64,000 nt of DNA from Anaeromyxobacter sp. (GTDB lineage: Bacteria > Myxococcota > Myxococcia > Myxococcales > Anaeromyxobacteraceae). Shown piece by piece: positions 4,614 to 21,063 of the stretch; position 1 is the first letter of the stretch; every line of letters starts with the position of its first letter. Position numbers and translations under genes: made by a program. The stretch is taken from contig JANYBC010000255.1 in NCBI GenBank assembly GCA_025360965.1, forward strand, positions 1 through 64,000, written 5' to 3'. Under the pieces are notes generated by a model that saw nothing but the letters and a program-made list of their open reading frames with translations, was not told the origin of the DNA and made no database searches.

Positions 4614-6233
4614 GTGCCCCCCCCGGTTGGAACGCTCCACCCCTCCGACGAACCCCGCCCCGGCTCCTCGCTGGCCGAGAAGGCGCTCTGGTCTCGCCTC
4701 AAGACCGGGCTGCCGGCCGGCTGGACCGCCTGGCACTCGCTGCGCATCCGCGACGCCAGGAACCTGCTGGGCGAGACCGACTTCGTGCTGGCCCACCCGG
4801 AGCGCGGGCTGCTGGTGCTGGAGGTCAAGGGCGGGCAGGTGGAGCAGCGCGACGGCCGCTGGTTCTCCAACGGCGCGCCGCTGCAGCACTCGCCGCTCGA
4901 TCAGGCGCGGACCTTCCTCTCCCGGCTCGTGAAGCGGCTCGACGAGTGGCACTGCACGCCGCCGGCCTGGGGCGCGGCCGTGGCCTTCCCGGATCGCGAC
5001 GTCGACGAGCAGCCGACCCAGGATGACCTGAAGGGCGTGGTGCTCGGCAAGAACCACCTCGTCTGGCTCGACCAGTGGCTGCTCTCGGTGGTGGAGAAGG
5101 CGCTGCCCGAGGCCCGGCCGGCGCGCGGCGAGTGGATGAAGCGGCTCAACGACCTCTGGGGCGAGAGCTGGTCGAAGCCGCTCAGGCTCGGTACCCGGGT
5201 CGAGCTGGCCAGGCAGCGGCGGCTGGCGCTCGACGAGCGGCAGCTCGACGCCCTCGACCTGCTGGCGGGCCAGGACCGGGCGCTGATCCAGGGCGGCGCC
5301 GGCACCGGCAAGACGCTGCTGGCGGTCGAGGCGGCGCGGCGGCAGGCCGACGAGGGGAAGCGGGTGCTGCTGCTCTGCTCGACGCAGCCGCTGGCCAAGT
5401 GGCTGCGGGCCCGGCTCGAGGGCACCGGCATCCAGGTGGAGACGGTGAGCGGGCTGGCCCGGACGCTGGCCGAGCAGGCCGACGGCCCGCGCGCCGGCGG
5501 GGAGCCGCTGGTCGAGGCCGACTGGAAGCGCTTCTTCGAGCGGGCCTGCGAGCTGGTCACGCCCGACTGGGACTCGGTGATCATCGACGAGGCGCAGGAT
5601 TTCCCCTTCGAGGCCTGGGCGCTGGTCGAGGGGCTGGCGCGCGGGCGTCGGCTCTGGGCCTTCCAGGACCCGGGGCAGTGCTACTGGCGCGATCGGGTGG
5701 TGCCGGCCGAGCTCTTCGGCAAGCCGTTCCTGCTGCGGCGCGGGCAGCGTTCGCCGGGCGGCATCGAGGCCCTGGCGGCGCGCTACGCCGGCGAGTACGG
5801 CGACGACAAGGCGATCGCGCGGGCGGTGGCGTCGCGCGAGCTGGTGCTGGTCGAGTGCGCGGCGCCGGCGCAGGCGGCCGACAAGGTCGGCGTCGAGGTG
5901 GAGCGGTTGGTGGGCGAGGGGATCGCGCTCGGCGACATCGGCGTCGTCTCCTTGCATGGCCAGGGGAAGCCGGAGGCTGTCCACCGCGCGGCGAAGCTGG
6001 GGCGCTTCCAGTTCGTGCTGGCCGACGCCGACGGGATGGAGGAGCGGCTGGTGGCCGACTCCTTCCTGCGCTGGAAGGGGCTGGAGCGGCCGGTGATCAT
6101 CATCGCCGACGGCGACCCGGCCATGAACCAGTTCGCGGTGCGCATGCACATCGCGCTGACGCGGGCGCTGGCCGCGGTGCGGATCGTGGCGCCACGCGGC
6201 GACGGGCCGTGGCCGGGGTTGCCTCCCCGTTGA
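4614..6233 (+). CDS. NERD nuclease-related domain fused to a UvrD-like superfamily I helicase
   Basis: Predicted DNA-processing protein. Residues about 20-130 form a NERD domain, with the nuclease-like core ETDFVLAHPERG...LEVKGG containing the E/D...ExK residues. Residues about 215-530 are a superfamily I ATPase: Walker A GGAGTGKT, Walker B VIIDEAQD, and a C-terminal HIALTRAL motif VI region. NERD-helicase fusions are widespread and often found in defence or plasmid contexts; the exact role of this one is unknown. The start is GTG at 4614, with TACACT 6 nt upstream and no Shine-Dalgarno, so it is probably leaderless. It opens the accessory block ending near 11.6 kb. Confidence 0.85.
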   Translation: MPPPVGTLHPSDEPRPGSSLAEKALWSRLKTGLPAGWTAWHSLRIRDARNLLGETDFVLAHPERGLLVLEVKGGQVEQRDGRWFSNGAPLQHSPLDQARTFLSRLVKRLDEWHCTPPAWGAAVAFPDRDVDEQPTQDDLKGVVLGKNHLVWLDQWLLSVVEKALPEARPARGEWMKRLNDLWGESWSKPLRLGTRVELARQRRLALDERQLDALDLLAGQDRALIQGGAGTGKTLLAVEAARRQADEGKRVLLLCSTQPLAKWLRARLEGTGIQVETVSGLARTLAEQADGPRAGGEPLVEADWKRFFERACELVTPDWDSVIIDEAQDFPFEAWALVEGLARGRRLWAFQDPGQCYWRDRVVPAELFGKPFLLRRGQRSPGGIEALAARYAGEYGDDKAIARAVASRELVLVECAAPAQAADKVGVEVERLVGEGIALGDIGVVSLHGQGKPEAVHRAAKLGRFQFVLADADGMEERLVADSFLRWKGLERPVIIIADGDPAMNQFAVRMHIALTRALAAVRIVAPRGDGPWPGLPPR

Positions 6234-6281
6234 TCGCGCTGGCCTTAGCCAGCGCAAGCCTCTGGCCAGCACCTCCAGCCC

Positions 6282-6380
6282 ATCGTTTCACTTCCGCGGC
6301 ACAGTCACCGCCCAACTGCTCGTCATCACTCGACTTGCCTCCTTGTTATCGTTTCATGTATCGTTTCAGTCATCGTTTCA
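6282..6380 (+). repeat. Four ATCGTTTCA iterons, three in exact 12-bp phase, upstream of the HipA-like gene
   Basis: The 9-mer ATCGTTTCA occurs at 6282-6290, 6348-6356, 6360-6368 and 6372-6380. The last three are spaced exactly 12 bp and end 27 bp before the ATG of the HipA-like kinase. The segment is AT-rich for this genome. It looks like a multi-site operator, perhaps for the HTH domain carried by the downstream kinase, but that binding is inferred. A weaker version, ATCGTCTCA, sits near 9275 in front of the HNH gene. Confidence 0.6.
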
Positions 6381-6407
6381 CCCACCAGCCCTGCCTCACC
6401 AACCACC

Positions 6408-7733
6408 ATGTCCGACGTCGACGCCCTCCTCTCCCAGCTCGCTCGCTGCCGCGTGGCCCGGGCCGCCGAGCTGCGCGGGGCGCTGAGGATCTCCGGGCCG
6501 ACGCTCTCCCGGCTGGTGGCCAAGGCCGGTGAGCGGGTCTTGCGCATGGGGAGCGGGCGGTCGACCGCCTACGCGAGGACGCGCACCATCGAGGGGCTGG
6601 GCCAGCGGCTGCCGATCTTCCGGGTCGACGAGGCCGGCGAGGCGACCGCGACCGGCCTGCTGCACCTGCTGGCCGAGGGGCGTCACTGGTGGGCTTCGGG
6701 CCGCGCTGGCGTCCACTTCACCGGACTGCCCCCGGCGCTGGCCGACATGGCGCCGCAAGGGTTCCTGGGCCACGGCTTTCCGGCCCGCTTCCCGGAGCTG
6801 GGGCTCCCTCCACGACCGGGGCGCTGGACGGATGACCACCGGCTCATCGCGCTGGCCCGCCGCGGCGAGGACTGCGTCGGCGACCTGGTGGTAGGGGACG
6901 AGTCGCTGGCGCGCGCCCTGTCGACGCCGCTGCGCGAGGTCGAGCCGGTCGTCTACCCGCAGCTCGCCGAGCGGGCCGCCACCGACGTGGCAGGCTCCTC
7001 GGCCGGCGGCGAGCGGCCCAAGTTCGGCGCCTTCGCCCGGGGGCGTCACCTGCTGGTGAAGTTCGCGTCCGGCGAGTCGGCACCGAGCGCGCGGCGCTGG
7101 CGCGACCTGCTCTGGTGCGAGTGGAAGGCGCTGGAGCTGGTGGCCACCGCGGGCGTACCGGCCTCGACGGCCCGCTGGATGGACGTGGAGGGCTGGCGCT
7201 TCCTCGAGGTGGAGCGGTTCGACCGGGTCGGTGCGCGCGGCAGGCGGGCGGTCATTTCGCTGGGCGCCATCGACAACCAGCACCTCGGCGTGGGCGGCGA
7301 CTGGATCGCGGTGGTGGCCCAGCTGGTCGGGCCGCCCTTCCTGCTCTCGCCTGAGGACCGGCGACGGGTGCGCTGGCTCGACACCTTCGGCCAGCTGATC
7401 GGCAACACCGATCGTCACCCCGGCAACCTGGCCTTCCTGGCGGCGCCGGGCGGGGCGCTGCGGCTGGCGCCGTCCTACGACATGCTGCCGATGATCCTCG
7501 CCCCCTCGGCGGAGACCCTGGTGCAGCGGCGCTTCGTGCCGGCGCCGCCGACGGGCGCCACGCTCGACGTCTGGCCCGACGCCGCGGCCTGGGCCGGGCG
7601 GTTCTGGGGCGAGGTGGCGGCGCAGCCGCTGCTCACCGATGCGGTGCGGCGCTTCGCCGAGGAGGCTGGGGCCGCGGTGGCGGCGCTGGAGCGGCGCGTG
7701 GCGCCGGGGCGTGTCGGGCGGCCTTCCGGGTAA
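6408..7733 (+). CDS. HipA-family kinase with built-in N-terminal HTH (YjjJ type)
   Basis: A HipA-like Ser/Thr kinase. HipA toxins phosphorylate a host target (glutamyl-tRNA synthetase for E. coli HipA); the target here is unknown. Residues about 1-70 are a winged-helix-like module (LRISGPTLSRLVAKAGERV). The kinase region contains HLLVKF as the nucleotide-binding lysine strand, GNTDRHPGN as the catalytic loop and APSYDMLP as the metal/activation loop. The overall plan and 441-residue length match E. coli YjjJ, in which the DNA-binding part is fused, so no separate hipB is needed, and none is seen. The upstream 12-bp iterons may be its own operator. It is convergent with the HNH gene, with a 35-bp gap. 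Confidence 0.82.
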   Translation: MSDVDALLSQLARCRVARAAELRGALRISGPTLSRLVAKAGERVLRMGSGRSTAYARTRTIEGLGQRLPIFRVDEAGEATATGLLHLLAEGRHWWASGRAGVHFTGLPPALADMAPQGFLGHGFPARFPELGLPPRPGRWTDDHRLIALARRGEDCVGDLVVGDESLARALSTPLREVEPVVYPQLAERAATDVAGSSAGGERPKFGAFARGRHLLVKFASGESAPSARRWRDLLWCEWKALELVATAGVPASTARWMDVEGWRFLEVERFDRVGARGRRAVISLGAIDNQHLGVGGDWIAVVAQLVGPPFLLSPEDRRRVRWLDTFGQLIGNTDRHPGNLAFLAAPGGALRLAPSYDMLPMILAPSAETLVQRRFVPAPPTGATLDVWPDAAAWAGRFWGEVAAQPLLTDAVRRFAEEAGAAVAALERRVAPGRVGRPSG

Positions 7734-7768
7734 TCGGGCGCGCTTCAGCGGGCCCTGTCTTCTGGCCA

Positions 7769-9268
7769 TCACCTCAGGTCAACCTCCCCGAAGCCGCTAC
7801 CCCGTGGCGCCCGCACCGTGGCGGCCACCCCGTACTCCGCCCCGTACTCCGCCCCGTATTCCGCTCCGTACTCCGCCACCGCCTCCCGCGCCCCGCGGTA
7901 CCTCGCCATCACCCGCTCGCCAAACGCCTGCCGCGCCGCCAGTCTGTTGTGCGCGGCACAGACGAGGCGAAAATCGGCCTCCTGCTCCCCGCCCCAGTCG
8001 GCCCACGGGACGATGTGGTCGAGCTCCAGCCGCAGCTTCGAGCCGCAGCAACCTCCGCCGTCGAGCGGCCAGCTGCAACGTCCGGCGTCGCGCGCCCAGA
8101 CGGCGCGCTTCACCGCGGCCGGGATGGCCGCGCGGGGGCCGTCGCGCCGGTGGAGCGGTTCGGCGAGGTTCGGCTCCGCCGCAGGCTGCGCCGGAGTCGG
8201 AGCGGCGTCCGGGGTGGTGTCGGGACCGGGGGCCGGGGCGGGGGCGGGGGCGGGGGCGGGTTCTGGAGCGGAGGCCGAGGCTGCGATCGCGGTCGGGATC
8301 GCGGTCGGGATCGCGGTCGACGCCGGAGCCGGAGCCGGAGCCGGGGTCGCCGTCGACGTCGCCCGCACCGCCCGCGGCTTCTTCACCTGCCCGCGCGCCC
8401 TTGCCTGCTTCTCCAGCAGCAGGTCGAGCGCCGCCTCCAGCACCTGCTCGGTGGTGGCGCGGGGGATGGCGTGGCCGAGCCCCTGGCGGGCAGTCTTGAG
8501 CTTCTCGAGGAAGCGGCGGCTGACCGTGGTGCTGAGGCGGCTCAGCTCTGCCGTGAGCGGGTCGACCTCGTCCCGGCGCGGCTCCGGCCGGCGCGGCTCG
8601 ACCGGTGCGGGGGGCGAGACCTGCGTTTTGGACGTCCAAAGTGACTCTGGGTCCGTGTTCTGCGCGGCGGCCGCCTGCGGCAGGCCGGCCTGGGCGGTCG
8701 ACGCCGAGGGGGAAGCGGAGTCGCACGACCTGTCGAGCAGGAAGGACGCCGCCTCGGCACCGCGAACCGTCGCCAGCGGCCTGACCACCGTCCGCATGGG
8801 CGGCGACTCGCGCGGCTGCAGCTCGGCGACGATCTCCCTGGCCTCGCGGGTGGAGATGCCGAGGAAGCGGGGCAGCACCGCCTCCCGGTTCTCCTCCGTC
8901 AGGACCTTGGCCAGCTCGCCCATGGTGCTCAGGCAGAGCTGCCCCTGGCGGAGCGGCTGCTCCAGCTCCGGGAAGCGCTGGAGCAGGCGAGCCGCCTCCT
9001 GCCGCCAGAAGGTCGGGGCCGGGGAGAGGCCGAGCTCGACGAGCAGGAAGGCGAAGAGGTTCGCGTGCCCGAGCGCCTCCCAACCACCGCGCCGGTCGAA
9101 GTCGGCCAGGGCGATGAGGAAGTCGGCCATCGCCGACTGCTCCGTGCGCAGCAATGTCTTGAGTGCGTCGCGCTGCTGCCGTGCTTCCAGGAGTTCGAGA
9201 GGACGGCAGGCCGGAGCGTGAGCGTGCGCCGCGGCCGAGGGAAGGGTCGGTTGCGCGTGGTTGATCAT
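7769..9268 (-). CDS. HNH endonuclease, DUF222-like, with long low-complexity linker
   Basis: Predicted HNH nuclease of 499 residues. The N-terminal half (about 25-150) is a helical DUF222-like region (LADFDRRGGWEALGHANLFAFL). A linker of about 100 residues rich in PAPA and IPTA repeats follows. The C-terminal HNH core is VWARDAGRCSW, then LELDHIVPWADWGG and CAAHNRLAA, giving the His-Asn-His set plus zinc-type cysteines. The tail contains EYGA repeated four times. Several such proteins per genome are common in actinobacteria and myxobacteria; substrate and role are not established. Start is ATG at 9268, in a 124-bp gap shared with the divergent small gene at 9393. Confidence 0.8.
   Translation of the reverse strand: MINHAQPTLPSAAAHAHAPACRPLELLEARQQRDALKTLLRTEQSAMADFLIALADFDRRGGWEALGHANLFAFLLVELGLSPAPTFWRQEAARLLQRFPELEQPLRQGQLCLSTMGELAKVLTEENREAVLPRFLGISTREAREIVAELQPRESPPMRTVVRPLATVRGAEAASFLLDRSCDSASPSASTAQAGLPQAAAAQNTDPESLWTSKTQVSPPAPVEPRRPEPRRDEVDPLTAELSRLSTTVSRRFLEKLKTARQGLGHAIPRATTEQVLEAALDLLLEKQARARGQVKKPRAVRATSTATPAPAPAPASTAIPTAIPTAIAASASAPEPAPAPAPAPAPGPDTTPDAAPTPAQPAAEPNLAEPLHRRDGPRAAIPAAVKRAVWARDAGRCSWPLDGGGCCGSKLRLELDHIVPWADWGGEQEADFRLVCAAHNRLAARQAFGERVMARYRGAREAVAEYGAEYGAEYGAEYGVAATVRAPRGSGFGEVDLR
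7829..7879 (-). repeat. 12-bp tandem repeat encoding four EYGA units
   Basis: A run of near-identical CCGTACTCCGCC units near the 3' end of the HNH gene encodes EYGAEYGAEYGAEYG on the minus strand. Further simple repeats in the same gene are a GGCGGG run near 8235-8262 (PAPA) and a GATCGCGGTCG run near 8284-8320 (IPTA). All keep the frame, so copy number can vary without breaking the protein. Confidence 0.85.
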
Positions 9269-9380
9269 TCACGCATCGTCTCACGCAGGTCTGACATTTC
9301 CGGGGTCGCGGACACGCATGAGACCCAACAGGGACGGGGGCTTCCTGGCGATCGGGCGGAGCGGCTGTCCTTGGCCTGGG

Positions 9381-9386
9381 TAGGCT
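9381..9386 (+). promoter_or_regulatory. Candidate -10 box for a leaderless transcript of the duplicated small protein
   Basis: TAGGCT is followed by 6 nt and then ATG. A similar GTAGGCTACTCGCA string precedes the EVE/HNH gene at 10639-10652, compared with GTAGGCTCCTCGCA here, suggesting the two promoters are related. Confidence 0.4.
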
Positions 9387-9392
9387 CCTCGC

Positions 9393-9755
9393 ATGGTCGC
9401 CGACGCGCTGAAAACCCCGCTTCCCCGCTCCCGGCGTCGCTGGGTCGACACCTGGATGCAAGGCGGTTCAGGTCGCTCCGGGCGGCCCCGCCCTTCCGCC
9501 GAGCTGCGGCTGCTCTGGCGCCTCTCGCTCTCGGCACTCAACGAGGCGCCGCGCTTCAGGGAGCCGGGCATGGCCCGCGACTCCTACTGGCTGGCGGCCA
9601 GGCTAGAGCGCGCGCGCGGGGAGGCGCAGGTGCGGCGGCTGCTCCTGCTGGCGCTGGAGGCCTTCAACGCAAAGCCACGCTTTGCCATCCCCTGCGAGCG
9701 GACCGACTCGTATGCCGTCGCGGCGAGGTTGGGGCGATTGTTTGACGCCTGGTAG
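9393..9755 (+). CDS. Small protein with an internal duplication, function unknown
   Basis: 120 residues, no family recognised. The protein contains two copies of one unit: NEAPRFREPGMARDSYWLAARLER and then NAKPRFAIPCERTDSYAVAARLGR, sharing N-x-x-PRF, P, DSY and AARL-x-R. This internal similarity at protein level is good evidence that the frame is real. A TAGGCT box sits 6 nt before the ATG with no Shine-Dalgarno, so a leaderless transcript is likely. It lies between two HNH genes and ends 49 bp before the ATG of the next one, on the same strand, so it could be part of that transcription unit. Confidence 0.6.
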   Translation: MVADALKTPLPRSRRRWVDTWMQGGSGRSGRPRPSAELRLLWRLSLSALNEAPRFREPGMARDSYWLAARLERARGEAQVRRLLLLALEAFNAKPRFAIPCERTDSYAVAARLGRLFDAW

Positions 9756-9804
9756 CAGCCGCCGGATCCTGGACTGGCTCCTCCGCCCCGACGAGAGGTC
9801 TCGA

Positions 9805-10584
9805 ATGCCCGCCGAACGCCGCCCCTGGTCTCGCGAAGAGCTTCTCCTGGCGCTCAACCTCTACTTCCGGATCTCCTTCGGGCGGCAGCACAAGCTGGCC
9901 CCCGAGGTGATTGAGCTTGCCGCCGCCATCAAGCGCTCACCCTCCGCCGTGGCCATGAAGCTCGGCAACTTCACCTCGATCGATCCCGAGGAGAAGGCGC
10001 GCGGCGTCGCTGGCCTGGCCGGCGCCAGCCAGGCCGATCAGCGGCTCTGGGCCGAATTCCAGGAGCGCCAGGAGGCGTTAGCCGCGGAGAGCGAACAACT
10101 CTGGCTGGCACGCGTTGATCGTCGGCCTGTTGATCGGGCGAGTCCAGCCGACCATGCTGCCGACTTCCAGGGGGCCACCGAAGGATCCCGCACCGTCACC
10201 GTCCGCCTCGCCCAGGGGTTCTTCCGGAAGGCCGTTCGCGCCGCCTACGGTCATCGTTGCTGCGTGAGCGGCATCGCCCTGCCCGGCCTCCTCATCGCGA
10301 GCCACATCGTCCCCTGGGCAGAGGACGAGACCAACCGTGCCCGCCCCACCAATGGCCTCCTGCTCTCGAGCCTTCATGACACCGCCTTCGACAAGCATCT
10401 GATCACCTTTGACGAGGAGTACCGGCTCATGATCGGCCAGCGACTCCGCGACCACTTCACCAACTCGGTGGTCCGCGAATCGTTCGCCCGGTTCGAGGGC
10501 CAGTCTCTTCGCCTCCCTGAACGACACGCTCCCGACCCCCGGCTCTTGGCGCGGCACAGGGACCGATTCATTTCGGCCGCCTGA
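9805..10584 (+). CDS. HNH_2-type endonuclease
   Basis: Predicted restriction-like HNH nuclease. The ORF track starts at 9682, but the first 41 residues overlap the previous gene and read as shadow. ATG at 9805 follows GAGAGG and gives 259 residues beginning MPAERRPWSREELLLALNLY. The N-terminal domain (about 8-60, RSPSAVAMKLGNFTSIDP) is one often found in front of HNH_2 domains. The C-terminal HNH_2 core reads CCVSGI, LLIASHIVPW and TNGLLLSSLHDTAFD. Its HNH core closely resembles that of the next gene (LIASHI-x-PW), so the two are probably tandem paralogues with different N-terminal specificity modules. Codon use is less GC-biased than neighbours, in keeping with transfer. Confidence 0.8.
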   Translation: MPAERRPWSREELLLALNLYFRISFGRQHKLAPEVIELAAAIKRSPSAVAMKLGNFTSIDPEEKARGVAGLAGASQADQRLWAEFQERQEALAAESEQLWLARVDRRPVDRASPADHAADFQGATEGSRTVTVRLAQGFFRKAVRAAYGHRCCVSGIALPGLLIASHIVPWAEDETNRARPTNGLLLSSLHDTAFDKHLITFDEEYRLMIGQRLRDHFTNSVVRESFARFEGQSLRLPERHAPDPRLLARHRDRFISAA

Positions 10585-10654
10585 GAATTCGCGCTTCCCC
10601 TGGGTGGTGGACGCCTGGCCCGGATTGCCCAGGTGGGAGTAGGCTACTCGCACC

Positions 10655-11626
10655 TTGCGCTACTGGTGGGTCAACCAGAAGCAGACGCACCGCCACGAGA
10701 TTGGCGGCGGCTATCTCTGGTCGCCCAAGCGCAAGGCCAACGATTCTCGAAACCAGTTCTATGAGAACATGAAGGCCGTCGCCCCCGGGGATCTCGTCTT
10801 CTCCTACTGGGAGGGTGCGGTACAGGCGTACGGCACGATCTGCTCCTTCGGCTACGACGCTCCAAAGCCCGTCGAGTTCGGCTCCGCTGGCCGCAACTGG
10901 GGAGAGGTCGGATATCGGGTGGACGTGGAATACGTCCGGCTCGAGAGGCCGATCGCTCCCAGGGATCACTGGAGCTCGATCGGCGACTTGTTGCCCGAGA
11001 AGTACTCACCCTTGAACAGGACCAAGGGCGTTGGGCTCCAATCCGTCTATCTCGCTGCGCTCCCGGCCGCGCTGGGACAAGTGCTTTGGAATCTCTCTGC
11101 CGAAGCCGGAAACCCCATCCTCGTGAAGGATAGGAAGCAGGCCCTGGTGCTCTCGACCGAGGAGCCTGAGCGAGAGCTCTGGGAGGGGCACCTCATCGAG
11201 GAACTTGCGGCCGGCGCCATCCAGGAGACCGAACGCGAGGCACTCGTCAAAGCTCGCCGCGGCCAGGGGCTCTTCAGGAGCAACATCTCCCGGATCGAGA
11301 GGGAATGTCGGATCACCGGCGTCACCAACCCCGCCTACTTGATAGCGAGCCACATCAAACCCTGGCGGCATGCCTCCAATGGCGAGCGCCTGAGCGCGCA
11401 CAACGGCCTGATGCTGGCTCCACAGGCAGACTTCCTGTTCGACCGCGGCTTCATCACGTTCAAGGAAGGTCGCGTGCTGGTCTCTCCCGTCGCCGACGAA
11501 CCCTCGCTCGTGAAGCTGGGCGTTGATCCGGACCATCCTCCTGAGGTCGGGTCCTTTTCGGGTGAACAGGAGCGCTTCCTGGAATTCCACCGATCGGAGA
11601 TCTTCCGATCGGCCTCGGCCGCCTAA
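10655..11626 (+). CDS. EVE-like/HNH_2 fusion, probable modification-dependent endonuclease
   Basis: The N-terminal 150 residues begin RYWWVNQKQTHRHEIGGGYLWSPKR and include DLVFSYWEG, the pattern of PUA-like EVE-type domains that read modified bases such as 5-methylcytosine. The C-terminal part (about 195-323) is an HNH_2 nuclease: CRITGV, YLIASHIKPW, HNGLMLAPQADFLFDRGFI. EVE-HNH fusions are a known architecture predicted to cut modified foreign DNA; activity here is inferred. The start is TTG at 10655, the only suitable start before the conserved YWWVNQ. It lies 70 bp after the HNH_2 gene on the same strand. The cargo reads as a restriction pair. Confidence 0.78.
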   Translation: MRYWWVNQKQTHRHEIGGGYLWSPKRKANDSRNQFYENMKAVAPGDLVFSYWEGAVQAYGTICSFGYDAPKPVEFGSAGRNWGEVGYRVDVEYVRLERPIAPRDHWSSIGDLLPEKYSPLNRTKGVGLQSVYLAALPAALGQVLWNLSAEAGNPILVKDRKQALVLSTEEPERELWEGHLIEELAAGAIQETEREALVKARRGQGLFRSNISRIERECRITGVTNPAYLIASHIKPWRHASNGERLSAHNGLMLAPQADFLFDRGFITFKEGRVLVSPVADEPSLVKLGVDPDHPPEVGSFSGEQERFLEFHRSEIFRSASAA

Positions 11627-11946: not shown

Positions 11947-14769
11947 ATGGCTACCAAGTCCCTCGTCATCGTCGAGTCGCCCGCCAAGGCCAAGACCATC
12001 GAGAAGTACCTCGGCGCCGACTTCAAGGTGATGGCCTCCGTCGGCCACGTCGTCGACCTCCCCTCGAGCCCGCTCTGCGTGGAGCTCGAGGACAAGGCCC
12101 ACCTCTTCGACCTCACCTACGAGGTGACCAAGCGCGACGTCATCAACTCGCTCAAGGAGGCGCTCAAGGGCGCCTCGACGCTCTACCTCGCCACCGACGA
12201 AGACCGCGAGGGCGAGGCGATCGCCTGGCACCTGCTCAACCAGCTGAAGCCGAAGGTGCCGGTCAAGCGGATGGTCTTCCACGAGATCACCAAGAAGGCG
12301 ATCCTCGAGGCGGTCGAGCACTCGCGCGGCATCGACGACGGCCTGGTCGACGCCCAGGAGTCGCGCCGCACCCTCGACCGGCTCTACGGCTACGAGCTCT
12401 CCCCGGTGCTCTGGCGCAAGGTCGGCCCGCGCCTCTCGGCCGGCCGCGTCCAGTCGCCGGCGCTCCGGCTGATCGTGGAGCGCGAGCTCGAGCGGATGCA
12501 GTTCCGCGCCGCCTCCTACTGGGACCTCTCGGCGCGCCACGCCACCGCCCCGGCCTTCACCAGCACGCTCACCGCCATCGACGGCCGCCGCATCGCCACC
12601 GGCAAGGACTTCAGCGAGCAGGGCGCGCTCTCCTCCGACGCCCGCCTCCTCGACGAGGCGACCGCCACTGGCCTGGCCAGCGGGCTCGAAGGGCGCCCCT
12701 TCACGGTCCGCTCGCTGGAGAAGAAGGGCTACCGCAGCTCGCCGAAGCCCCCCTTCATCACCTCCACCATGCAGCAGGAGGGCGGCCGCAAGCTTCGCCT
12801 CTCCGCCCAGCAGGTGATGCGCCTGGCCCAGGGGCTCTACGAGCGCGGCTACATCACCTACATGCGCACCGACAGCACCACGCTCTCGGCCACCGCCCTC
12901 TCGGCCGCCCGCAGCCAGATCGGCGAGCTCTACGGCGACAAGTTCCTCCCGCCGGCGCCGCGCAGCTGGGCCAAGAAGGCCAAGAACGCCCAGGAGGCCC
13001 ACGAGGCGATCCGCCCGGCCGGCGACGCCTTCCGCACCCCCGAGTCGCTGCAAGGCGAGCTGGGCGGCGGCGAGTGGAAGCTCTACGACCTGATCTGGAA
13101 GCGGACCATCGCCTCGCAGATGGCCGATGCGGTCGGCGAGTCGGTCAGCGTCAAGCTCGAGGCCACCACCGCCAAGGGCGAGCGCTGCGAGTTCAGCGCC
13201 GGCGGCCGGACCATCACCTTCCCCGGCTACCTGCGGGCCTACGTCGAGGGCGCCGACGACCCGGACGCCGCGCTCGACGACCAGGAGTCGCCGCTGCCGG
13301 CCCTGCAGGAGGGGCAGGCGGTGCCGGTCAGCGCGCTCGAGCCGATTGGCCACGTCACCTCGCCGCCAGCCCGCTTCACCGAGGCCTCGCTGGTGAAGAA
13401 GCTGGAGGAGCTCGGCATCGGCCGCCCCTCCACCTACGCCTCGATCATGGGGGCGCTCGCCTCGCGCTACGTCTGGAAGAAGGGGCAAGCGCTGGTGCCG
13501 GACTGGGTCAGCTTCCCGGTGATCCGGCTCTTGAAGGAGCACTTCACCGAGCTGATCGACTTCGCCTTCACCGCCGAAATGGAGGAGGACCTCGACGAGG
13601 TGGCCGGGAAGGAGCGCGGCCGCGTCGAGTTCCTCAAGCTCTTCTACTTTGGCGACGCCAAGCACAAGGGGCTGAAGCAGCTGGTCGAGGCGCTCGGCGA
13701 GATCGACGCCGCCGCCATCAACTCGATCCCCATCGGCTTCGACGCCAAGGGCGTGCTGATCGAGGCCCGCCCGGGCCGCTACGGCCCGTACCTGAAGCGC
13801 GGCGAGGAGACCGCCTCGATCCCCGGCAACCTCGCCCCGGACGAGCTGACTGTCGCGCTGGCGCTCAAGATCCTCTCGGCGCCGACCGGCGGGCGCGAGC
13901 TCGGCACCGACCCGGCCACCGGCCTCGAGGTGCGGGTCAAGTCGGGCCGCTTCGGCCCCTACGTGCAGCTGGCGCCGCCGCCCCAGCCGGCTGCCGCGAA
14001 GGCCGAGGCGAAGCCGGCCGCCGTGAAGACCGCTGCGAAGGCCGCAGGCAAGACCGCCGGCGCCAAGGAGAAGGTCAAGTCGCAGGCCAAGGCCAAGCCG
14101 GAGAAGCCGCTCAAGACCCAGTCGCTGCTCAAGTCGATGGACCCGGCCACGGTCACGCTCGACGAGGCGCTGCAGCTGCTGGCGCTTCCCCGCCCGCTCG
14201 GCCTGAGCCCCGGGGGCGACGAGGTGCGGGCCTGCTACGGCAAGTTCGGCGCCTACCTGACCATGGGCGGCGAGAGCCGCAACCTCGGCGGCGAGGAGGA
14301 CCGGATCTGCCTCACCATCACGCTCCCGCAGGCGCTGGCCATCTTCGACCAGCCGAAGCAGTTCCGCGGCCGCGGGGCGCCCAAGCCGCCGCTCGCCACC
14401 TACGGCGAGGACCCGGTCTCGGGCAAGAAGGTGATCCTCAAGGACGGCAAGTTCGGCCTCTACGTCACCGACGGCGAGACCCTCGCCTCGCTCCGGCGCG
14501 GCGACCAGGCCGAGGACATGACGCCCGACCGGGCCCACGAGCTGCTGGCCGAGCGGCGCGAGTACATGGCCTCGCCGGAGGGGCAGGCCAAGGCGGCGCT
14601 GCGGGCGGCGAAGCGGGGCGGCCGCGGGGCTCGCCTGGCGAAGGGGGCGGCGAAGTCGGTCAAGGCGGCGCCGAAGCCCGCAGCCGAGCCCAAGCTGGCG
14701 AAGGCTTCAGCCGAGCCAGGAAAGTCCAAGGGGAAGCAGCCGGCGAAGAAGAAGGTTTCCAAGGCGTAA
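11947..14769 (+). CDS. topA: DNA topoisomerase I (type IA)
   Basis: Relaxes negative supercoils by a single-strand break and passage mechanism. The N-terminal Toprim domain has LVIVESPAKAKTI and the acidic triad ATDEDREGEAIAWHL. The catalytic tyrosine is in YITYMRTDSTT (Tyr305). The core ends near residue 590. C-terminal topoisomerase repeats follow, with paired GRFGPYV/GKFGAYLTM/GKFGLYV motifs instead of four-cysteine zinc fingers. An Ala/Lys-rich linker (about 675-720) interrupts the repeats and the last 60 residues are Lys/Ala-rich, which probably aids DNA binding. 940 residues is long compared with E. coli (865), accounted for by the linker and tail. Essential housekeeping gene; a flanking boundary of the accessory block. 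Confidence 0.97.
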   Translation: MATKSLVIVESPAKAKTIEKYLGADFKVMASVGHVVDLPSSPLCVELEDKAHLFDLTYEVTKRDVINSLKEALKGASTLYLATDEDREGEAIAWHLLNQLKPKVPVKRMVFHEITKKAILEAVEHSRGIDDGLVDAQESRRTLDRLYGYELSPVLWRKVGPRLSAGRVQSPALRLIVERELERMQFRAASYWDLSARHATAPAFTSTLTAIDGRRIATGKDFSEQGALSSDARLLDEATATGLASGLEGRPFTVRSLEKKGYRSSPKPPFITSTMQQEGGRKLRLSAQQVMRLAQGLYERGYITYMRTDSTTLSATALSAARSQIGELYGDKFLPPAPRSWAKKAKNAQEAHEAIRPAGDAFRTPESLQGELGGGEWKLYDLIWKRTIASQMADAVGESVSVKLEATTAKGERCEFSAGGRTITFPGYLRAYVEGADDPDAALDDQESPLPALQEGQAVPVSALEPIGHVTSPPARFTEASLVKKLEELGIGRPSTYASIMGALASRYVWKKGQALVPDWVSFPVIRLLKEHFTELIDFAFTAEMEEDLDEVAGKERGRVEFLKLFYFGDAKHKGLKQLVEALGEIDAAAINSIPIGFDAKGVLIEARPGRYGPYLKRGEETASIPGNLAPDELTVALALKILSAPTGGRELGTDPATGLEVRVKSGRFGPYVQLAPPPQPAAAKAEAKPAAVKTAAKAAGKTAGAKEKVKSQAKAKPEKPLKTQSLLKSMDPATVTLDEALQLLALPRPLGLSPGGDEVRACYGKFGAYLTMGGESRNLGGEEDRICLTITLPQALAIFDQPKQFRGRGAPKPPLATYGEDPVSGKKVILKDGKFGLYVTDGETLASLRRGDQAEDMTPDRAHELLAERREYMASPEGQAKAALRAAKRGGRGARLAKGAAKSVKAAPKPAAEPKLAKASAEPGKSKGKQPAKKKVSKA

Positions 14770-14885: not shown

Positions 14886-15437
14886 ATGGTCCTGAAGCCG
14901 CAAGACCTGTTCGTCGCCATCCGCCTGGCCCTCCTGCCGGCCGGAGCGCACTTCAGGTACACGGAGGCGGCCTCCGCGCTCGGCCTCAGCCGCAGCGAGG
15001 TGCACGCCGCGGTTCGACGCTGTGTGGCCGCACAGCTGGCCAGCGAGCTGGCGCATCGTGCTGACGCCGCCGTCGCGGTCAACCGCGGCAACCTGGTCGA
15101 GTTCCTCCTCCACGGCGCTCGCTTCGCCTTCCCGCCCACTCACGGCGGAGTGACGCGCGGAGTTCCCACCGCGCACGCGGCGCCCGGGCTTGCCGGTCGC
15201 TTCGCTCCGACCGACCTGCTCCCTCCGGTCTGGCCCCACCCGGAAGGGACCACCCGTGGCCGTGCCTTCGAACCGCTCTACCGCTCAGCCCCGGTGGCCG
15301 CGGCCGCCGACCCGCGCATGTACACCGCGCTGGCGCTGGTCGACGCCATGCGCGGTGGTACGGCCCGTGACCGAAGCGTCGCCGCGCCGCTCCTCGAGGC
15401 GTTGCTCGCACCCTCCGGTTCGGGCGGCTCGCCATGA
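14886..15437 (+). CDS. Winged-HTH protein, probable antitoxin/regulator of the downstream nucleotidyltransferase
   Basis: 183 residues. The N-terminal 60 residues look like a winged helix-turn-helix (YTEAASALGLSRSEVHAAVRRC). The C-terminal part has no family I can name; it contains a Pro/Gly-rich stretch, then helices around RMYTALALVDAMRGG. Its TGA overlaps the ATG of the next gene by 4 bp (ATGA), so translation is coupled. The layout of a DNA-binding first gene, an MNT-fold second gene and an upstream palindrome is that of an autoregulated type II or IV toxin-antitoxin unit such as AbiEi/AbiEii. That role is inferred. Confidence 0.65.
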   Translation: MVLKPQDLFVAIRLALLPAGAHFRYTEAASALGLSRSEVHAAVRRCVAAQLASELAHRADAAVAVNRGNLVEFLLHGARFAFPPTHGGVTRGVPTAHAAPGLAGRFAPTDLLPPVWPHPEGTTRGRAFEPLYRSAPVAAAADPRMYTALALVDAMRGGTARDRSVAAPLLEALLAPSGSGGSP

Positions 15438-16109
15438 CGGCCAACACCGTCCTGCTCGAACGCGTAGCCCCGCACCTCTCCAAGGTGAGCGCTGGTTTCG
15501 TCTACCTGGGCGGCGCCGTCGTGGACCTGCTCTTGACCGACCAAGCCAGTCCGCAGGCCCGTCCGACCGACGACGTAGACACCATCGTCGAGGTCGGAAC
15601 GACTTCGCAGTACTACCAGCTCGCCGAGAGGCTCCGCGCCGCCGGCTTCAAGGAAGACACTTCGCCGGGTGCCCCGCTCTGTCGCTGGATCGTGGCCGGG
15701 ACCAAGGTCGACGTCATGCCGACGGAGCCTGCGGTGCTGGGGTTCTCGAACCGCTGGTACCCGTCGGCCATTCGCCACGCCGAGCCGGTCCAGCTTGGGG
15801 ACGGGTCGGTCGTCCAGGTCGTGACTGCGCCCCACTTCGTCGCCACCAAGCTCGAGGCCTTCAAGTCTCGGGGTGCCGGCCTCTTCCGCGAGAGCACCGA
15901 CATCGAGGACATCGTCGCGGTCGTCGATGGTCGCCCCGAGCTCGGTGCCGAGGTCGCGCGCGCCCCAGCCGACCTCAGGGGCTATCTCTCGCAGGAGCTC
16001 GGCACGATGCTCGGCAACCCACGCTTCCTCGACGCCCTGCCCGGCCACTTGCCTTCAGACACCGCCAGCCAGGCCCGCCGGCCGCTGCTGCTGGCCAGGC
16101 TGCGCGCGA

Positions 16110-16129
<20 letters not shown>
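15434..16129 (+). CDS. MNT-fold nucleotidyltransferase, AbiEii-like toxin candidate
   Basis: 231 residues with the polymerase-beta/MNT catalytic pattern: YLGGAVVDLLL, then the DxD in RPTDDVDTIVEV and a third acidic residue in TKVDVMP. All three metal-binding aspartates are present, so activity is expected. Enzymes of this fold in AbiE/MenT-type systems add nucleotides to tRNA or protein and arrest growth; the substrate here is unknown. It is coupled to the preceding HTH gene by an ATGA overlap. Its 3' end overlaps ettA (opposite strand) by 20 bp, so insertion here was tight or ancient. Confidence 0.7.
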
Positions 16130-17774
<1,645 letters not shown>

Positions 17775-17780
17775 GGCGGC

Positions 17781-17822
17781 CTTATACCCGAGAACATGGC
17801 GAGGCCGGGCAGGCACTATACT
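17781..17822. promoter_or_regulatory. Divergent, possibly leaderless promoters of ettA and the DUF2721 gene
   Basis: In the 55-bp gap between the two start codons, the minus strand has TATAAG (17786-17781) 6 nt before the ettA ATG. The plus strand has TATACT (17817-17822) 7 nt before the DUF2721 ATG. Neither gene has a Shine-Dalgarno sequence. The two promoters must overlap, so they probably influence each other. Confidence 0.5.
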
Positions 17823-17829
17823 CGGGGCC

Positions 17830-18309
17830 ATGAACCCCGAGCCGCTGCTGACCGACATCACCCACACCATCCAACTGGCGGTCGCCCCGGTCTTCCTCCT
17901 CACCGCGGTCAGCACCACGCTCTCGGTCTTCACGGTGCGGCTGGCCCGCATCGTCGACCGGGCCCGCCGGGTGGAGGAGCTGCTGGCCGCGGCCCCGCCG
18001 GGCCGGCTCGAGGCCACCCGCGCCGAGCTGGGGGTGCTCCACTCCCGCGCCAGGCTGATCCACCTCGCCCTCACCTTCGGGACCGGCACCGCCATCCTGG
18101 TCTGCCTGGTCATCGCGGTCGCCTTCATCGGCTACCTGCTCGAGGCCCACCTCGGCGCCAGCCTGGCGATCCTCTTCATCCTGGCGGTGGGGGCCTACGT
18201 GGTGGCGCTGCTCTTCTTCCTGCGCGAGATCTTCATGGCCATCCAGCACTTGCGCTTCGGCCTGCCCCACGAGATCCACGGCGGCCCGCCGCCCGAAGCG
18301 GGGGCCTGA
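17830..18309 (+). CDS. DUF2721 family membrane protein
   Basis: 159 residues. An N-terminal hydrophobic segment (about 10-35, LAVAPVFLLTAVSTTLSVF) is followed by a short charged helical region with RLARIVDRAR, typical of DUF2721. Two more transmembrane segments follow (about 75-100 and 105-130). Function of the family is not established. The ORF-track start at 17566 is inside ettA; ATG at 17830 is chosen because the conserved N-terminus starts here and TATACT lies 7 nt upstream. Confidence 0.85.
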   Translation: MNPEPLLTDITHTIQLAVAPVFLLTAVSTTLSVFTVRLARIVDRARRVEELLAAAPPGRLEATRAELGVLHSRARLIHLALTFGTGTAILVCLVIAVAFIGYLLEAHLGASLAILFILAVGAYVVALLFFLREIFMAIQHLRFGLPHEIHGGPPPEAGA

Positions 18310-18374
18310 GCGACGGTGCGCCCCACCCTGCCGGCCAAGGCCACCCGGGGTGGCGGTGCTGCTGCCCGGCGAGC

Positions 18375-19106
18375 TCAGCGACGCGGCAGGCGCAGCCGGA
18401 GCCACCACCAGGCCGCGCCCGTCGCCAGCACCACCAGGGCCAGCACCGCCAGCCGCAGCAGCGCCCCGCTGGCCAGCGCCGCCGGCCTGCGGCGAGGTCT
18501 GGTTCGCAGCAGCTTCCCGGGGTCGGGGGGCTGCAGCCCGGCCACCAGCGACAGGCCGATGCCGGCGTAGGGCGGGTCGCCCTCGTTGACGGCGACCGCG
18601 CGGGCCACGCGGAAGAGCCGCACCTCCTCCTTCAGCCCCGGCAGCGCCCGCCAGCCCAGCTCCTCGACCGGGACCCGGGAGCGGTCGAGCGTCCAGTAGA
18701 TCGACTCGGAGAACCAGACCTCGCCCGACTCGGCCAGCCCCTCGATGCGGGAGGCGAGGTTGACCGCCTCGCCGAAGACGTCGCCGCGGTCGAGCCGGAC
18801 GTCGCCGAGGGCCAGCGCGATGCGCACCTCGATCCGGTCGCCCTCCACCACCCGCCGGGCGTGGTCGGCGAGCCGGTCCTGGATGGCCACCGCGCAGAGC
18901 AGCGCCTCGGTGGAGGCGGCGAAGATCACCAGGTAGGCGTCACCAATGGTCTTGATCCGCTGCCCGCCGAAGGCGGCGATCACCGGCGAGAGCAGCGCGT
19001 CGTGCAGCCGGAGCATGCGGGCGTTCTCCTCCCGCGTCTGCCGGCTGGTGGCGGCGGTGAAGCCCTTCATGTCGGTGAGCATCACCACGCGGCTCTCGGT
19101 CAGCAT
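18375..19106 (-). CDS. Class III adenylate/guanylate cyclase with C-terminal membrane anchor
   Basis: Predicted nucleotide cyclase. The catalytic domain (about 5-170) is intact: metal Asp in LTDMKGFT, substrate lysine and second Asp in KTIGDAYLVIF, base-reading Asp in GDVFGEAVN and the transition-state Asn/Arg in NLASRIEG. Lys plus Asp favours ATP. One hydrophobic helix (about 215-238) near the C-terminus should anchor it, with the catalytic domain in the cytoplasm. ATG at 19106 is chosen; the TTG at 19130 would overlap the kinase gene. It follows the kinase/pseudo-cyclase gene by 10 bp on the same strand, so the two are very likely co-expressed and may interact. Confidence 0.85.
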   Translation of the reverse strand: MLTESRVVMLTDMKGFTAATSRQTREENARMLRLHDALLSPVIAAFGGQRIKTIGDAYLVIFAASTEALLCAVAIQDRLADHARRVVEGDRIEVRIALALGDVRLDRGDVFGEAVNLASRIEGLAESGEVWFSESIYWTLDRSRVPVEELGWRALPGLKEEVRLFRVARAVAVNEGDPPYAGIGLSLVAGLQPPDPGKLLRTRPRRRPAALASGALLRLAVLALVVLATGAAWWWLRLRLPRR

Positions 19107-19116
19107 GGCGCGCCGC

Positions 19117-21063
19117 TCACCACTTCCCAACCCGCCGCCTGGGCGATGCCACCCCGGCCTCGACCGCCAGCGGCGCCACCGGCCGCGGCGAGAGCGGCCG
19201 GGCCAGCGCCGCCCGGTTCACCGTCCAGCGCCGCCCCATCCAGCCGCGCGCCGTGGCCAGCCCGCGGCGCCAGCTGAGCGCCCGGGGCCCCACCTGGCCG
19301 AGCCCCCAGACCCACCCGGCCAGGACCACCAGCGCGGTGGCCAGCAGCGAGAGCAGCGACGCCAGCAGCAGCGCGGTGAGCGAGAGCAGCGACCAGGCCA
19401 CCCGCAGCGACGAGCGCCAGCGCGCCTCGCCGCCCGCCTCCAGCGAGCCGAAGGTGTCGGTGACCGGCTCGAGCAGGCGGGAGACCCCGGTGTCGCGCGG
19501 CACCCGCTCGGCCTCGCGCCCGCCGAAGGGGAGCGGTCCGCTCGAGGGCCGCACCCGGTAGAGCGAGAGCCGCTCGTCACCCGGCAGCGGCAGCGCCTCG
19601 GCCACCGGCTCGAGCGCCACCTCGGTCTGGTTCATGGTGAGCGCCACGGCGCGGGTCAGCCAGATCTCGCCGGCCGGGGTCCGGGATCGCGTCGCCTCGG
19701 CCTGCGCCACCGGGAGCGCGCCCGCCACCACCCGGCCGCCGGCCAGCTCGCCGGTGGCGAGCCCGAGCCGGAGCGCCAGCCGGTCGGACTCCGGCGCGGT
19801 GGAGTTCCACCCCGCCACGCGGTCCTGGATCGCCATGGCGCAGAGCACCGCGTTGGTGGGTGAGGCGAAGTCGGCGGTGAGCGCCTCGCCGGTCACCAGC
19901 GCGCGCCGCCCCTCGAAGGCCAGCAGGGCCGGCACCACCAGCCGGTCGTGCGCCAGCAGCAGGCGGGCGCGCTCCTCGGGCGGCAGCGCCGCCCGCGCTC
20001 CCCAGCCGTCGATCTCGACGGCCAGCAGCGTCAAGGTGCGGGCCCGCGGCAGCCCGGTGGTGACCGGCCAGAAGAGGCTGGTGATGGGCCGGGGTCCGCG
20101 GCGCCGCGGCGGCTCGACGCGGCGCGGGGCGTTTCGGAGCACCGCCCGCCCCCCCTCGCGCCCGTCGAGGATGGCGAGCAGCTCGGCCGCCGACTGGGCG
20201 CGGCCTGACCGGTCCTTCACGGTGGCGCGGGCCACGAAGCGGAGCAGGGCCGGCCAGCCGGCCAGCTCGGGGGCCTCGCGCTCGGGGGACGGCACCGGCT
20301 CGAAGGCCTGGGACTTGAGGAGCGCGCGGGTGTCTGCAGTGGGGAACGGGTGGCGCCCGGTCAGCAGCACCCAGGCGATCAGCCCGGCGCTGTAGAGGTC
20401 GGCGCGGTGATCGAGCTCGCCACCGACCGCCTGCTCGGGCGCGAGGTACTCGGGCGTCCCGACCACCAGCCCGGCCTGTGTCGAGGCGGCGCCCGGCACC
20501 CCGCCGGCCTGCTTGGCGATGCCGAAGTCGAGGATGGTGAGCCGCACCTGCCCGTCCTCGGGCACCAGCCAGAGGTTGTCCGGCTTCAGGTCACGGTGAG
20601 TGATGCCGGCGGCGTGGGCCGCCACCAGCCCGCGCAGCAGCTGGCGCATCAGGTCGGCCACCAGCGACGGCGGCAGCGCCCCCTCGCGCGCCAGCCGGTC
20701 GCGCAGCGACTCCCCCTGGAGCAGCTCCATCACCAGGAAGAGCTCGCCGGTCGGGGCCTGACCGAAGTCGAGCATCTCCACGACGTGCGGCGAGGAGACC
20801 TGCACCGCGGTGCGGGCCTCGCGCCGGAACCGCTCCACCTCGATGGGGCTCTGGGCGAAGCGCGGGTGGAGCACCTTGACCGCCACCGGCCGGCCGATGC
20901 GGACCGCCTCGGCCTCGTAGACCGCCCCCATGCCCCCCTCGGCGATGAGCCGGGAGATCCGGTAGCGGCCGTCGAGGAGCGCCCCGGGCGCCAGCGGCGG
21001 GAGCGGCGCGACCGCCTCCGGCACGAGGTCGTCGTCGCAGAGGGCGAGGGTCTTCTGCTCCAT
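19117..21063 (-). CDS. Ser/Thr protein kinase fused to a degenerate cyclase-homology domain
   Basis: 648 residues. The kinase (about 30-300) is complete: glycine loop AEGGMGAVYEAE, VAVKVL lysine, THRDLKPDN catalytic loop, LDFGIAK and YLAPEQ. Residues about 345-510 match a class III cyclase (LAMAIQDR-like segment CAMAIQDRVAGW as in the neighbour). The metal positions are Glu (AVEIDGW, GEALTADF), the substrate lysine is absent, and the Asn/Arg pair is lost, so the domain should be inactive. Two close hydrophobic segments (about 555-600, LLSLTALLLASLLSLLATALVVLAG) form a membrane hairpin. A GGAGGGG ribosome site precedes the ATG. It is followed 10 bp later by an intact cyclase. Confidence 0.88.
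   Translation of the reverse strand: MEQKTLALCDDDLVPEAVAPLPPLAPGALLDGRYRISRLIAEGGMGAVYEAEAVRIGRPVAVKVLHPRFAQSPIEVERFRREARTAVQVSSPHVVEMLDFGQAPTGELFLVMELLQGESLRDRLAREGALPPSLVADLMRQLLRGLVAAHAAGITHRDLKPDNLWLVPEDGQVRLTILDFGIAKQAGGVPGAASTQAGLVVGTPEYLAPEQAVGGELDHRADLYSAGLIAWVLLTGRHPFPTADTRALLKSQAFEPVPSPEREAPELAGWPALLRFVARATVKDRSGRAQSAAELLAILDGREGGRAVLRNAPRRVEPPRRRGPRPITSLFWPVTTGLPRARTLTLLAVEIDGWGARAALPPEERARLLLAHDRLVVPALLAFEGRRALVTGEALTADFASPTNAVLCAMAIQDRVAGWNSTAPESDRLALRLGLATGELAGGRVVAGALPVAQAEATRSRTPAGEIWLTRAVALTMNQTEVALEPVAEALPLPGDERLSLYRVRPSSGPLPFGGREAERVPRDTGVSRLLEPVTDTFGSLEAGGEARWRSSLRVAWSLLSLTALLLASLLSLLATALVVLAGWVWGLGQVGPRALSWRRGLATARGWMGRRWTVNRAALARPLSPRPVAPLAVEAGVASPRRRVGKW

Follow-up and report, generated by a model that had tools for sequence, protein, structure and literature searches.

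A variable accessory locus of Anaeromyxobacter with a putative EVE-HNH type IV restriction gene and one copy of a dispersed HNH gene family that forms transposable elements in sister species

The structure of VcaM4I, an EVE-HNH enzyme, has been used to assign the residues that bind the flipped base and those that cut the DNA (PMC7897488), and EVE-HNH architectures are regarded as putative type IV enzymes (PMC7641849). The HipH/YjjJ proteins form clade X of the HipA kinases (PMC8262856; PMC9948734), a clade of monocistronic kinases that carry an N-terminal HTH domain (PMC8262856), and the E. coli YjjJ paper makes no mention of phage. Dispersed HNH genes are known from the REP13E12 repeats of M. 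tuberculosis, to which no defined function is ascribed (PMC13061034). In the IS231 group of the IS4 family, insertion is accompanied by target duplications of 10-12 bp (PMC2266710). Here we compare these systems with a block of accessory genes from Anaeromyxobacter sp., located at positions 4614-11626 of the window, the whole stretch of 64,000 nucleotides that was analysed.

The block holds six accessory genes, which encode a NERD-SF1 helicase, a HipH/YjjJ kinase, an HNH protein referred to as HNHm, a small protein, an HNH_2 protein and an EVE-HNH protein. A first-pass annotation had named these genes at this place, and their presence was confirmed. It had also described the last genes as poorer in GC at wobble positions, and this is borne out since GC3 falls from 0.97 (NERD), 0.94 (YjjJ), 0.90 (HNHm) and 0.87 (small protein) to 0.81 (HNH_2) and 0.80 (EVE-HNH), against 0.96-0.99 for hemH, the S9 peptidase, topA and an isocitrate lyase fragment. 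The description of the flanks as core genes holds only in part. The relatives of the S9 peptidase within the family are only about 37% identical, and topA on the 3′ side (11947..14769, + strand; Pfam Topoisom_bac) is unlike the topA usually found in the family, sharing 75-80% identity with three relatives and about 47% with the usual gene. Because the GC3 of the NERD and YjjJ genes looks native, part of the block may consist of older chromosomal genes. The low GC3 of other genes and their absence in one relative could also mean loss there, not gain here. We consider it quite probable that the block is not one system but an accessory locus of mosaic and variable composition, with EVE-HNH as its defence core and HNH_2 as a possible second restriction nuclease.

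EVE-HNH (10655..11626, + strand) aligned with VcaM4I over its whole length (PDB 6yex and three further entries; 1.4e-71, residues 1-318 versus 1-307), with both the N-terminal EVE and the C-terminal HNH domain present across its full length. In the alignment, the pocket residues Q10, T11, E15, W22, P24 and W82 of VcaM4I and the stacking residue Y130 have identical counterparts in EVE-HNH, as do the wedge residue Q128 and the active site residues H224, N241, D250 and D254; the pocket residue S23 is present as well. Given this full-length match and the conserved pocket and catalytic residues, EVE-HNH is by homology a putative type IV modification-dependent restriction endonuclease of the VcaM4I type and, as such, a complete one-gene system; the previous statement that no known complete system is present was therefore wrong. 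It would represent a further member of an already known kind of restriction enzyme. The EVE domain is predicted to hold in its pocket a modified cytosine (5mC/5hmC type) flipped from incoming phage or plasmid DNA. Capture of this base would free the HNH dimer, which would then cut the DNA, and a partner gene would be unneeded. Both the substrate and the restriction of phage are predicted from the protein sequence.

Every search for relatives was run over the own genome and 59 further genomes. Homologues of EVE-HNH at full length were found only in G011 and G005, at unrelated loci. The G011 relative (74%) adjoins a tyrosine integrase at serS, in an island that also holds an HmaC ATPase (1e-127) and a type IV-like HIT-PLD-helicase, so that, of the two closest homologues found, one is part of a defence island with an integrase. 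The G005 relative stands alone amid housekeeping genes. The full-length homology, the intact residues, the patchy spread and the absence of the gene at the corresponding site of G003 (see below) together support EVE-HNH as the defence core of the locus.

The HNH_2 protein (9805..10584, + strand, in an ORF that opens at 9682; Pfam HNH_2, 5e-14) is restriction-type according to the PADLOC model HNH PDLC04132, which it matched over its full length (4e-85); the PADLOC HNH_2 models are single-protein models, and such a match is no proof of defence. It resembles VcaM4I in the HNH part only, and full-length relatives were found in just two genomes of another family. The gene is a possible second restriction nuclease. 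The NERD helicase (4614..6233, + strand, 539 aa) combines a NERD nuclease-like domain (Pfam NERD, 1.2e-9) with an SF1 helicase (AAA_30, 1.3e-9) and matched the PADLOC family RTasNERD-Hel (6e-29), within residues 10-355 only. Close homologues occur in 10 other genomes of the family, where the neighbours differ from genome to genome and include an AbiEi-like and a DUF2779-like gene. For both the HNH_2 gene and the NERD helicase gene, a role in defence is plausible. The small protein (9393..9755, + strand, 120 aa) matched no known family in family and profile searches, including PADLOC, and has only weak relatives. Its halves form an internal duplication (alignment score of 69, compared to 41 for the best of 500 shuffles), and what had been noted as a duplicated small protein is therefore one gene with an internal repeat and not two genes.

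The kinase (6408..7733, + strand; HipA_C, 2e-19) carries an N-terminal extension, aligns to the HipA structure 3tpd and scored 402 bits with the YjjJ model NF007297 of NCBIfam (cut-off 401). The match covers residues 7-432 and, being full-length, is what implies a putative N-terminal HTH domain. No antitoxin gene was recognised beside the kinase, the flanking genes being those of the NERD helicase and HNHm. Homologues were present in 19 other genomes. The kinase had been counted, as toxin-like, among the usual components of phage-defence islands; HipH/YjjJ kinases are encoded alone (PMC8262856).

To follow the locus in a relative, we compared it to G003, a 98% complete genome of the same genus (contigs of MAG SKS1.bin67). 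The order topA-HNHm-YjjJ is kept in G003, with a kinase that is 79% identical, while the NERD, small protein and EVE-HNH genes are lacking at the orthologous place. Between topA and HNHm, G003 has a DUF1697 gene and a 64-bp remnant (84%) derived from the beginning of HNH_2. On the far side of the kinase, a DUF2779 gene takes the position that NERD has in the window. HNHm and YjjJ are a pair adjoining topA that is common to G003 and probably lies outside the defence function. Since full-length EVE-HNH, NERD and HNH_2 are patchy among the relatives and are absent or a remnant in G003, the genes are not fixed and syntenic in all relatives, and the variability proposed for the interval holds. The homologues are scattered and have differing neighbours, which indicates an interval that varies and is in part of a defence type, with genes that are not inherited as one unit.

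We regard it as very unlikely that the NERD helicase, HNH_2, EVE-HNH and the kinase work together as a single new system in a genuine multi-gene island. The majority of the genes are nucleic-acid or toxin-like, and G014 has within 6 kb a NERD homologue, a different HNH_2 protein, a PLD-like protein, a PDC-S02-like nuclease and a short EVE-HNH-like fragment, as might be expected of such a system. However, the EVE-HNH homologues of G005 and G011 have neither NERD nor the HNH_2 gene next to them, the surroundings of NERD are different in each genome, and HNHm and YjjJ persist in G003 without the others. When co-occurrence and co-inheritance were checked over the own genome and the 59 others, no evidence was found that binds the six genes into one system. 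The opposite explanation, a locus with no defence function that is composed of older chromosomal genes and dispersed selfish HNH genes, with EVE-HNH and HNH_2 as decaying passengers, is also unlikely. It would account for the HNH_2 remnant in G003, the frequent truncation among HNHm copies and the native GC3 of NERD and YjjJ, but not for an intact EVE-HNH that has kept every functional residue checked, nor for its 74% relative within the integrase-bearing island of G011. The preferred reading thus remains that of a mosaic locus with EVE-HNH as its defence core. The defence reading as such is correct for one gene, plausible for two others and doubtful for the remaining ones. From the proposed defence island, the variable interval, the one restriction enzyme type (EVE-HNH) and the G011 homologue in a defence island can be retained, whereas the idea of one system in which every nuclease is defensive cannot, HNHm being a gene of a dispersed repeat family. 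The recognisable defence content of the block is accordingly a known single-gene restriction enzyme and no hidden new system.

HNHm (7769..9268, − strand) has a helical N-terminal domain, low-complexity linkers and a C-terminal HNH domain. We obtained 29 matches to HNHm in the own genome. Most other well-assembled genomes in the family gave 20-56 matches and G004 gave zero; fragments were tallied separately, so that one copy can give several matches and the matches exceed the copies. In the genus of the window, the repeat unit has sharp boundaries, one about 72 nt ahead of the ATG and the other where the HNH coding region ends. As seen in the alignment of upstream regions and a pattern scan, its conserved 5′ leader (9269..9340, − strand) has the left end GTCCCTSTTGGGTTYC, which is conserved in most copies of this genus. 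A pattern scan in the genus did not detect an inverted partner of this end downstream. G003 site L147, which a flank search had proposed as an empty HNHm site, holds an HNHm remnant, and a clean empty site was not found. The protein had been called DUF222-like. HNHm of the window itself has no match to DUF222 (PF02720), and among 40 members of the family five matched (best 8e-5), suggesting that the family may be weakly linked to DUF222-HNH repeats such as REP13E12. HNHm was also considered as a defence gene; the window copy matched no PADLOC family at 0.001, and the matches of a few relatives to restriction models covered the HNH only and were judged generic. A fold search with the HNHm model gave no significant match (best E 0.16, to the HNH parts of Cap5 and EcoKMcrA). 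Weak matches to ParB/Noc DNA-binding domains recurred in this search (E of at least 0.7), a hint only.

A different organisation was observed in the sister species, and these elements are the unusual and most novel result of the analysis. In Anaeromyxobacter oryzisoli SG63, A. soli SG29 and A. terrae SG22, the HNHm unit of about 2 kb is conserved beyond the gene on both sides and has at its boundaries imperfect inverted repeats that follow the pattern TCANNATTCRTCACA. This pattern, with at most one mismatch, had 13-29 matches in each of six genomes of the genera g4 and g5 and none in G000, G003 and G006, and the reversed control pattern had none anywhere. In the complete genome G022, HNHm is present at 19 of the 22 distinct end sites, the other three being single ends that have neither HNHm nor a partner end; in G011, also complete, all end sites hold HNHm. 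Full-size elements measure 1.8-2.1 kb and some are shortened. HNHm is the sole gene inside every sampled pair of inverted repeats, and the element extends at most about 600 nt on either side of it, a length that would probably not accommodate a DDE transposase gene of the usual kind.

In 8 of the 16 elements inspected, the ends are flanked by direct repeats of 9-11 bp, among them GGGCGCAGCCC in three A. soli insertions and GCCTGTAAGGC in another. The three A. soli insertions sit in a dispersed palindromic repeat, unoccupied copies of which (L319 and L320) read CGGGGGCGCAGCCCCCG once, showing that insertion duplicates the 11 bp. In A. terrae and G011, both the palindromic repeat and the element are missing from the orthologous flanks. 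As the A. terrae flanks thus lack the target repeat as well, they do not alone show insertion of the element; the unoccupied repeat copies do. Nearly all inspected G011 elements lie within GGTCGG-like hexamer arrays, where a target duplication is unreadable. With inverted repeats, target duplications and unoccupied targets, HNHm in the sister species is the gene of a transposable element with terminal inverted repeats. The median dN/dS among HNHm copies within a genome was 0.27-0.46 in the three sister species and 0.54 in G003; the ORF is therefore under purifying selection between copies and the protein is maintained. An Rfam scan of three element-bearing loci gave no match, and an RNA-guided reading gains no support from it.

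It is possible, and we propose it tentatively, that the HNHm proteins themselves move these elements, which would then form an undescribed class of bacterial transposon characterised by inverted repeats, 9-11 bp duplications and palindromic or short-tandem-repeat targets. The presence of HNHm as the only gene in every sampled pair, the purifying selection and the lack of a transposase with shared ends back such self-mobility. As part of this reading, the window copy might be an immobile relative of the sister-species elements. Since duplications of about one helix turn resemble those of the IS4 family, the main rival is mobilisation in trans, to which we give an even chance: an IS4-like transposase would act on the ends of the elements and move them as mobile insertion cassettes, with HNHm as a passenger. 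The target of IS231 is GGG(N)5CCC. However, neither G022 nor G011 was found to contain an element or IS that has the same ends and lacks HNHm, and the ends lack the initial CAT that is typical of the IS231 group (PMC2266710). In open-access papers, we found no description of an element like the one proposed here.

Compared to known systems, EVE-HNH of the window shares with VcaM4I the whole-length homology, the domain order and the base-pocket and catalytic residues, and differs in its host lineage and in being known from sequence alone. The kinase resembles HipH/YjjJ as a lone HipA kinase that has an N-terminal extension and passes the NF007297 cut-off. The NERD helicase has the order of NERD followed by SF1 helicase seen in PADLOC RTasNERD-Hel and C3a187, but its match spans the N-terminal two thirds only, and no linked reverse transcriptase was found among the proteins of the block with Pfam, PADLOC and NCBIfam profiles. 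The sister-species elements are similar to mobile insertion cassettes and IS4-IS231 elements (PMC2266710) in their inverted repeats, the duplication of about one helix turn and the lack of an internal transposase gene; unlike in those, the sole gene is an HNH nuclease, and no partner IS with the same ends was found. With REP13E12 and other DUF222-HNH genes of mycobacteria, HNHm shares the multi-copy, dispersed occurrence and a weak DUF222 similarity in 5 of 40 members. The terminal inverted repeats are absent at the HNHm copy of the window (no matches to the pattern in G000 and G003), and it is the sister-species copies, not this one, that differ from REP13E12 by inverted repeats and target duplications. 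Multi-copy HNH genes that lack a defined purpose exist elsewhere, for instance REP13E12 (PMC13061034), and in Anaeromyxobacter the ends, target duplications and unoccupied targets make HNH-nuclease-driven transposition directly testable.

The topA gene of the window (11947-14769, +), which flanks the accessory block downstream, shares 75-80% identity with its counterparts in three closely related genomes (G001, G003 and G004), but only ~47% with topA of the remaining family, and both kinds are present in G004. This split in sequence identity, together with the presence of both kinds in one genome, suggests that a foreign topA has replaced the usual one. The long open reading frames downstream of topA (14886-19274) gave no match in Pfam. 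Codon-position GC in the frame at 15873-17351 is 0.91/0.48/0.67, unlike coding sequence, and the real genes of this region may therefore lie in a different frame.

A nuclease-rich cluster in G014 (L093, C79) contains a NERD helicase, an HNH_2 protein, a PLD-like protein, a PDC-S02-like nuclease, an additional HNH-like protein and a C-terminal fragment of EVE-HNH.

Elements of Anaeromyxobacter species at L204, L215, L217, L222, L226, L288, L290 and L292 have inverted repeats and target duplications of 9-11 bp, and their sole gene is a relative of HNHm, the HNH protein encoded at 7769-9268 (-) in the window. The HNHm elements of the relative G011 show a striking target preference for GGTCGG-type hexamer repeats: approximately 20 of them (L277-L282, L296-L312) sit within such tandem repeats in a fixed orientation. 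In A. terrae and A. soli, HNHm elements target a dispersed palindromic repeat of roughly 200 bp (L319, L320 and L321 in G020), which varies between species, being present in some and absent in others.
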